64,000 bases of DNA. Source: Candidatus Caldisaccharidevorator malaysiensis. Its GTDB lineage: Bacteria > Armatimonadota > Fervidibacteria > Fervidibacterales > Fervidibacteraceae. The stretch spans positions 1-64,000 of the forward strand of contig JANXBO010000001.1 in the NCBI GenBank assembly GCA_025057575.1, written 5' to 3'. Shown one piece after another: positions 45,815 through 47,422 of the stretch. Positions within the stretch are counted from its first letter, which is position 1, and every line of letters starts with the position of its first letter. The notes beneath the pieces were generated by a model that had not been told where the DNA came from, searched no databases, and was given only the letters and a program-made list of their open reading frames with translations. The position numbers and the translations under genes are program-made.

Positions 45815-47422
45815 TTACTCACGGACGGTCAGCGTCCGGACTTGTCGGTCCTTTAGGTTGAGCACCCGAACACTGTGGTTATTGGTATCGGCTACAAAGA
45901 TTTCGGAGTCAAGAAAAGTCAATCCTGATGGCTCGTTAAACAGAGCAGAGTCAAAGGACCCATCTTGAAAACCGGCAGAACCAGTTCCTGCCAGAGTTTT
46001 TACAGTCCTCGTCCTCGGATCTACCGTCTTGATCTTATGGTTATACGCGTCCGCAATGTAAAGCAATCCGTTGTGAAAAGCAATGCCCAAAGGATGTTGA
46101 AGGAGCACCTGATCCCCAGTCCCGTCCCGGTCGCCAAAGACGAACAGACCCCGACCCACGATCGTTCGTATCCAGAAAGGCTCTTTTAGTTCCGCAAAAC
46201 GCACAGAACTGGTTTCACTATCAACGAAAAACAGCCGCCCGACGCCAACAGCAAGACCGCTGGGCTGAGCCAAATGAGCGTCGTGCGCCCTCCCGTCACG
46301 GATACCTTCTGCGCCGGTTCCGGCAAAGGGGCTCAACCAGTTCCGTTCCAAATCAAGAACCCATAGTTGGTGGCTCCCCGCCATCGCTATATAGAGTTGG
46401 TTTCCAACCAGAGCCAGGTCCCAAGGGGAGCGAAGGGCAACGGTGAGGGGACGCCCGCCTTGCGAGAAAAAGCGACCCAGTTGACCCGTTCCAGCGATGG
46501 TTTGAACCGTTTGGGTTTGAAAGTCTGCCAGCCGGATAGCGTGATTGCCCGTATCAGCAATGAACAGCCGACCTTTTGGGTCTAACGCCAGTCCTTGGGG
46601 TGATTGAAAGGCAGCCTTTTCGAAGGGACCATCTCGGAGACCTTCTTCACCGCTGCCGATGACTCTCTTGATCTGCCCGTCTCGTCCGATTTGGAGGACC
46701 CGATGATGACCGGAGTCGGAGACAAAAAGGGTCCTTGTCTGAGGATCGGCGATGACTTTTCCAGGGAAGGAGAGGGCACCGTTTGATTCTTTTTCCATTT
46801 GGAAATCCAGAGGCACCTCGGATAGGCGACCTCGCCGCCGGGCGTCTTCAATGAGGGGCTTCAGATAAGCGATAAGGTCGGCGGCCATCAGTTCTCCTTC
46901 ATGAGCCCCAATGATCCTGCCATCGGGATCAATGAGGACCAGAGTCGGCCAGGCCCGCACGCCATACTCTTGCCAAATTCTTCTGTCCGCATCGTTGATG
47001 ACAGGGTGGGTCACATTGTAGCGACGGATCGCCTGCCTGAGGCTCTCATCGTCGGCTTCGTTCGGAAACTTTGGCGTGTGGATCCCAATCACGACCAATT
47101 CTTTAGGAAAGGCTCTTTCCACCTGCCGCAACTGCGGCAGCAAATGCAAACAGTTGATTCAGCAAAAGGTCCAAAAATCCAACAGCACGAACCGACCCCT
47201 TAAGTCGCTTAGCCGAAGGGGTCGGACTATGTTAAACCATCGGGCATTGGCGGGAAAGTCCGGTGCGCGCACGACAGGGTCGTCTCTCATTGACACTCCC
47301 TCTTGAGAAACCAAAGAGTGAAACGCCTTAACAGTTAGGTGGATCCACAACGCTAACGTTATGCCCCCAAGGATAAGAAGCCATTGGATACCTGTGTATC
47401 GGTTTTGGTCCTTACCCCACAT
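45815..47422 (-). CDS. Thioredoxin-like NHL-repeat protein (NHLRC2-like) with in-frame TGA at the redox cysteine; probable selenoprotein
   Basis: Read from ATG 47422, one frame gives 535 codons with a single TGA, at 47161-47159 (codon 88). A membrane helix (residues 12-30) leads to [27 protein letters not shown]. In the family, including human NHLRC2, this site reads ...TYCCINC.HLLP, so TGA stands at the first Cys of CxxC. After it follow the rest of the thioredoxin fold ([28 protein letters not shown]) and an NHL propeller ([20 protein letters not shown] and similar repeats). The piece after the TGA has no credible start of its own (only a TTG four codons after it). The alternatives are a nonsense mutation or sequencing error. 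The gene follows purD by 17 bases. Confidence 0.85.
47123..47140 (-). promoter_or_regulatory. SECIS-like hairpin after the in-frame TGA
   Basis: On the coding (minus) strand CTGCCGC-AGTT-GCGGCAG forms a perfect seven-base-pair stem with a four-base loop. It begins 18 bases after the TGA, so the loop starts 25 bases after it. Bacterial SECIS elements typically sit in this range and have a G among the first two loop bases, which AGTT satisfies. No covariation or SelB-binding data are available from one sequence. Confidence 0.65.

Follow-up and report, generated by a model that had tools for sequence, protein, structure and literature searches.

The 64,000-nucleotide stretch of DNA analysed here (the window) carries on its reverse strand a gene for a thioredoxin-NHL protein (Table 1) that runs in one frame from an ATG at 47422 to a TAA at 45817-45815 (536 codons including the stop). 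The sole stop inside this frame is a TGA at 47161-47159, codon 88, which falls on the first Cys position of a CxxC motif in the context WTFC-U-INC (C-U-I-N-C). With the TGA read through, the product has 535 residues, and the open reading frame that follows the TGA is 444 amino acids long. A sequence-only reading of this DNA, which had proposed a new selenoprotein related to NHLRC2, had the frame, its single TGA and the 444 open codons downstream at just these positions, and all three were confirmed. Standard gene calling would cut such genes in two at the TGA. In the window the gene lies between purD on the upstream side and a downstream BNR-repeat sialidase-like gene, and the open reading frame beyond it is a trypsin/PDZ protease in the sister genome G001 and a metallophosphatase in G005. 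No conserved gene context was found among the neighbours inspected in the window, G001 and G005, in agreement with an earlier report (PMC6107167).

Table 1 Features of the thioredoxin-NHL locus in the window
Feature	Position	Strand	Basis
Gene for putative Sec-containing thioredoxin-NHL protein	45815..47422	-	Translation with TGA as U; Pfam; full-length orthologue alignment
UGA codon 88, putatively read as Sec, first position of UxxC	47159..47161	-	TGA in 54 against TGC/TGT in 126 distinct rows
Putative resolving Cys, codon 91 (TGT)	47150..47152	-	Cys in 54/54 UGA rows and in the counted Cys rows
Predicted N-terminal membrane helix, residues 11-39	47306..47392	-	AlphaFold2 (block pLDDT about 41-71); hydrophobic sequence
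Thioredoxin-like domain, about residues 50-196	46835..47275	-	Pfam; alignment; AlphaFold2
Six-bladed NHL beta-propeller, about residues 215-533	45824..46780	-	Pfam; AlphaFold2; structure match
SECIS-like hairpin, 7-bp stem, AGUU loop at 47133-47130	47123..47140	-	Fold; covariation; comparison of UGA and Cys forms

The translated product matches the Pfam families NHL, Thioredoxin_8 and AhpC-TSA, and its AlphaFold2 model has a pLDDT of 89.5 and a pTM of 0.85. The closest solved structures by fold are SOQ1 (7djk, rmsd 1.7 Å, TM 0.88-0.91) and human NHLRC2 (6gc1, TM 0.84-0.86). Sequence profiles agree with the fold, SOQ1 being the best match among solved structures (580 bits), and the earlier name "NHLRC2-like" is right on both counts. 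The CC(I/V)NC motif of the family is present with Sec for its second Cys, other Sec forms reading CUINC, AUINC or GUINC, and a candidate cis-proline opposite the motif (P159, in AWPT) is shared by all 13 sequences aligned. The propeller is the last domain of the protein, which has neither a third, C-terminal beta domain nor a HAD domain. Since domain architectures differ among mammals, plants and bacteria (PMC6107167), these additional domains would not define membership of the family in bacteria. The predicted helix, modelled with low to modest confidence, suggests that the protein is probably anchored in the membrane, with the remainder outside the cytoplasm.

Orthologues gathered from Armatimonadota, from named genomes and from Dehalococcoidia form one family throughout and comprise 54 distinct rows with UGA and 126 with Cys. 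Codon 88 is TGA in 54 rows, TGC in 83 and TGT in 43, so that the TGA aligns with Cys codons, and neither TAA nor TAG occurs there in any of the 54 UGA and 126 Cys rows. The set spans Armatimonadota, Chloroflexota (SAR202/Dehalococcoidia), Planctomycetota, NC10 and others. SAR202 and other Dehalococcoidia/Chloroflexota supply the large majority of the UGA forms, which are also found in Armatimonadota (the window, G001, G003, G005 and G087), NC10 (L072) and Planctomycetota (L108). The 53 UGA rows other than the window gene come from many assemblies and are 42-61% identical to the window protein. Cys91 is kept in every UGA row (UINC in 47, UVNC in 7), and the residue preceding Sec is Cys in 34 of them, Ala in 18 and Gly in 2; the Cys before Sec thus looks dispensable and is often replaced by Ala or Gly. 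Each UGA row has exactly one in-frame TGA and no second stop in its matched coding region, with the exception of one fragment that has a second TGA at its extreme 5' edge. From these alignments, the Sec thioredoxin-NHL protein is judged to be a widespread subfamily rather than an oddity of one genome.

Conservation of the coding sequence on both flanks of the TGA, as claimed in the sequence-only reading, is seen in the orthologue alignment and in the codon-position bias downstream. A comparison of two relatives over 107 codons 3' of the TGA gives 9, 2 and 45 differences at first, second and third codon positions, which indicates that this part is under purifying selection at the protein level. 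selA was found in 52 of 55 UGA-type genomes versus 53 of 96 Cys-type genomes (p = 7e-8; this and the other p-values overstate the independent evidence since the sequences are related, although the tree described below still shows several separate switches). The UGA-type genomes in which selA was not detectable are G003 (63% complete), G294 (1.9 Mb) and G664.

Downstream of the UGA, after a spacer of 18 nt, lies the hairpin CUGCCGC-AGUU-GCGGCAG, which has seven perfect pairs, a loop starting at +25 nt and G as the second loop base, as it had been described from the sequence. Taken alone, the window hairpin is not significant against shuffles (z = -1.6, with 15 of 200 shuffles folding equally well), and it becomes convincing only through comparison of UGA with Cys homologues. 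When pairs were counted in the register of the window stem, 49 of 54 UGA genes had five or more in a row, as against 0 of 126 Cys genes (Fisher p = 8e-39, overstated likewise). Over the 27 nt at +15..+42, folding energy averages -11.3 kcal/mol in UGA genes and -1.7 kcal/mol in Cys genes. Nine diverged sequences keep 7/7 pairs, and three of these pairs show compensatory changes: one pair varies as G-C/U-A/C-G, and at another CCG/CGG is changed to CCU/AGG, synonymously in both arms. The element is thus a conserved and covarying hairpin of the bacterial SECIS type, with an AGUU loop in 50 of the 54 UGA forms. In L072 and L108 the hairpins are placed differently and have a G within the first two loop bases, and the UGA form L115 (of G087) has no recognisable hairpin at the usual place, so that its SECIS may have diverged or its TGA may be a genuine mutation. 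Rfam gave no family match at the hairpin; a sub-threshold RNase P match (10 bits) was dismissed as chance.

The hairpin is itself coding sequence, and as a result PQLR is encoded in 50 of the 54 UGA forms at the place where Cys forms mostly have PDLK. The SECIS appears to be so conserved as to dictate the protein sequence beside the active site, which would make PQLR a clear example of protein sequence moulded by an RNA element.

The source genome is a 2.78-Mb draft in 102 contigs, and its placement in Armatimonadota is reflected in the Chthonomonadia- and Armatimonadetes-named records that recur among the nearest loci. The genes selA, selB and selD are present with scores of 560, 409 and 384 bits, and so is a tRNA-Sec whose anticodon is TCA (77.7 bits; gathering score 47). 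With the whole Sec machinery encoded, the organism can, judging by its gene content, decode UGA as Sec. Its SelD has an in-frame TGA of its own in the motif GG-U-ACKIGP (L007, 1189-2466, -) and, with Sec at this position, would be a selenophosphate synthetase that requires selenium for its own synthesis. An in-frame TGA also interrupts four more AhpC/TSA-family genes of this genome, in three cases at a UxxC motif. These probable selenoproteins (L174, L175, L178 and L180 of G000) have the motifs GUTLQ (peroxiredoxin-like), WUGPC (ResA-like), HUGAC and GUTAC, the last three proteins being thioredoxin-like, and in the HUGAC and GUTAC genes the inverted repeat GUGCGGAGGYUCCGCAC lies directly 3' of the TGA. 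Further thioredoxin-fold genes with Sec motifs were seen in other genomes. L051 (G010) and L052 (G037) belong to a second UINC thioredoxin-like family with an in-frame TGA (HFWTFG-U-INC) that recalls DipZ-type SCINC domains, the match being limited to the thioredoxin part. L053, L054 and L055 (G007, G054 and G045) are ResA/TlpA-like proteins with WUGSC or WUGGC; selA is present in their genus, yet its thioredoxin-NHL protein uses Cys.

An unrooted maximum-likelihood tree was inferred from an alignment stripped of the Sec and hairpin columns. On this tree 30 of the 34 UGA rows group with two Cys rows in a set of 32 (SH-aLRT 95) that brings Armatimonadota and Chloroflexota together, and Sec and Cys must have been switched at least five times on branches with good support. 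Both Cys rows of the Sec set look like reversions, gain and loss being indistinguishable without a root. In G037, a Cys form (L031) still encodes PQLR and has a degraded stem; it may be a Sec form that recently reverted to Cys, leaving a fossil SECIS behind. We consider it likely that these genes represent an unlisted, widespread Sec subfamily of the NHLRC2/SOQ1 lineage in which Sec is the usual residue of the main clade (30 of 32 tree rows), the SECIS apparently dictates PQLR, Sec and Cys have been exchanged repeatedly, and the position in question, the second Cys of CCINC, is the nucleophile of NHLRC2 and SOQ1.

Other readings of the TGA were weighed against selenocysteine. TGA is one base away from both TGC and TGT and the source genome is a draft of many contigs, so a TGC codon could have mutated to a stop or been misread, leaving the gene broken or mis-sequenced; a C-to-A change of this kind had been named as the main alternative when the DNA was first read. 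However, 53 other distinct gene sequences, from many assemblies, have TGA at this very codon, the coding part has no other stop and shows the strong downstream codon-position bias, and the hairpin occurs only together with TGA. Sequencing error or a pseudogene is therefore rejected as a general explanation for the 54 rows and their linked hairpin, and for the window gene we regard it as very improbable. Still less credible is that this lineage has reassigned TGA to another amino acid such as Trp or Gly. Such reassignment is known from a few groups of bacteria, but in the window TGA acts as a normal stop codon: it terminates 25 of 52 ORFs (non-overlapping, at least 150 aa, mechanically selected), and in G001 it terminates the same thioredoxin-NHL gene (TLPME-TGA). 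Moreover, the TCA-anticodon tRNA scores as tRNA-Sec, and homologues carry Cys at codon 88, not Trp or Gly. The judgement in the sequence-only reading that general reassignment is unlikely is upheld on all three grounds.

Two further possibilities accept the UGA as functional and differ on its role. Every UGA-Sec gene competes with termination, so regulation and catalysis could coexist, and termination might even be the main function, giving an 87-aa product or low read-through as a selenium-dependent switch with full-length protein made only at plentiful selenium. Against this, the downstream protein is under purifying selection, and a switch would have no need of a stop placed, as it always is here, precisely at the catalytic residue; we think termination improbable as the main function. 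Alternatively, Sec may be inserted and have no redox role, the propeller being a structural or binding module. The failure of human NHLRC2 to reduce insulin in an assay (PMC6107167) favours this idea, and from it plain thioredoxin activity may be absent in the NHLRC2 family. The Sec position nevertheless always exchanges with Cys, and Cys91 is kept in both UGA and Cys forms. Sec is costly and, on the established view of selenoprotein evolution, unlikely to be kept without redox use, so a Sec devoid of redox function seems equally improbable here.

We are therefore highly confident that the gene at 47422-45815 (-) encodes a selenoprotein in which UGA 88 is read as Sec, and that its product is a bacterial counterpart of NHLRC2 and SOQ1 with a UxxC redox centre; actual selenium insertion at codon 88 is what we infer from the sequence comparisons above. 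In the mechanism that we propose, SelB carrying Sec-tRNA-Sec would bind the hairpin 18 nt downstream, and the ribosome would then insert Sec at UGA 88. The product would be a membrane-anchored and probably extracytoplasmic protein, its thioredoxin fold and six-bladed NHL propeller corresponding to NHLRC2 and to the lumenal part of SOQ1, with the UxxC redox centre in the cleft that separates them. Because Sec and Cys exchange at this position and the neighbouring Cys looks dispensable, Sec88 is the likely nucleophile: its selenolate would attack a client disulfide, or be oxidised by one, and the Cys91 thiol would resolve the mixed selenosulfide. The propeller may hold the client while the redox centre reduces (or oxidises) it, and the membrane helix would place this reaction outside the cytoplasm.

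In mammals NHLRC2 is essential, and mutations in it lead to FINCA, a fatal disease of childhood; in plants, photoprotection is under the control of SOQ1. The redox chemistry of their thioredoxin domains is nonetheless in doubt, and the redox activity of the SOQ1 domain "remains to be determined" (PMC10173003). The Sec forms described here bear on this question, since the repeated use of Sec at exactly one Cys of CCINC provides strong comparative evidence that this residue is a redox nucleophile, and suggests that the NHLRC2-like family is really one of redox enzymes. The bacterial Sec protein could also serve as a reactive model enzyme for finding clients.

UxxC selenoproteins of the thioredoxin fold are well known. 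Bacterial Sec thioredoxin-like and TlpA/ResA-like selenoproteins share the UxxC active site and a SECIS inside the coding sequence with the protein described here, but no family model among them fits a thioredoxin-NHL protein, and the window protein reaches only 27.9 bits against a cut-off of 300 for the ResA-like selenoprotein model NF041054 (WAxxUGC_long). NCBIfam likewise holds no fitting selenoprotein model, an inventory from 2026 that covers 119 families and subfamilies of prokaryotic selenoproteins (PMC13188914) contains the string "NHL" 0 times, and the main text of the GOS survey contains no NHL or propeller selenoprotein (PMC2398784). No published NHL-type selenoprotein was found in the open-access literature, and as far as could be found this is the first Sec form of the NHLRC2/SOQ1 family.

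Among Cys-containing relatives, DipZ of Mycobacterium tuberculosis (2hyx, 5cyy) has a similar thioredoxin domain (114 bits to the N-terminal domain) and the motif SCINC (PMC6107167), but lacks an NHL propeller and has Cys instead of Sec. The lumenal part of SOQ1 (7djj, 7djk) shares the thioredoxin and propeller fold and is membrane-anchored, as is predicted for the window protein, its redox domain lying in the thylakoid lumen (PMC10173003), whereas SOQ1 differs in its HAD domain, its C-terminal domain and the Cys at the motif. Human NHLRC2 (6gc1) has the same thioredoxin-like domain and six-bladed NHL propeller at 39% identity, and the cleft between its domains holds the CCINC motif (PMC6107167); by homology, Sec88 would correspond to Cys90 of the human protein. 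Unlike the window protein, which has a predicted N-terminal membrane helix and ends after the propeller, human NHLRC2 carries an extra C-terminal beta domain and uses Cys rather than Sec.
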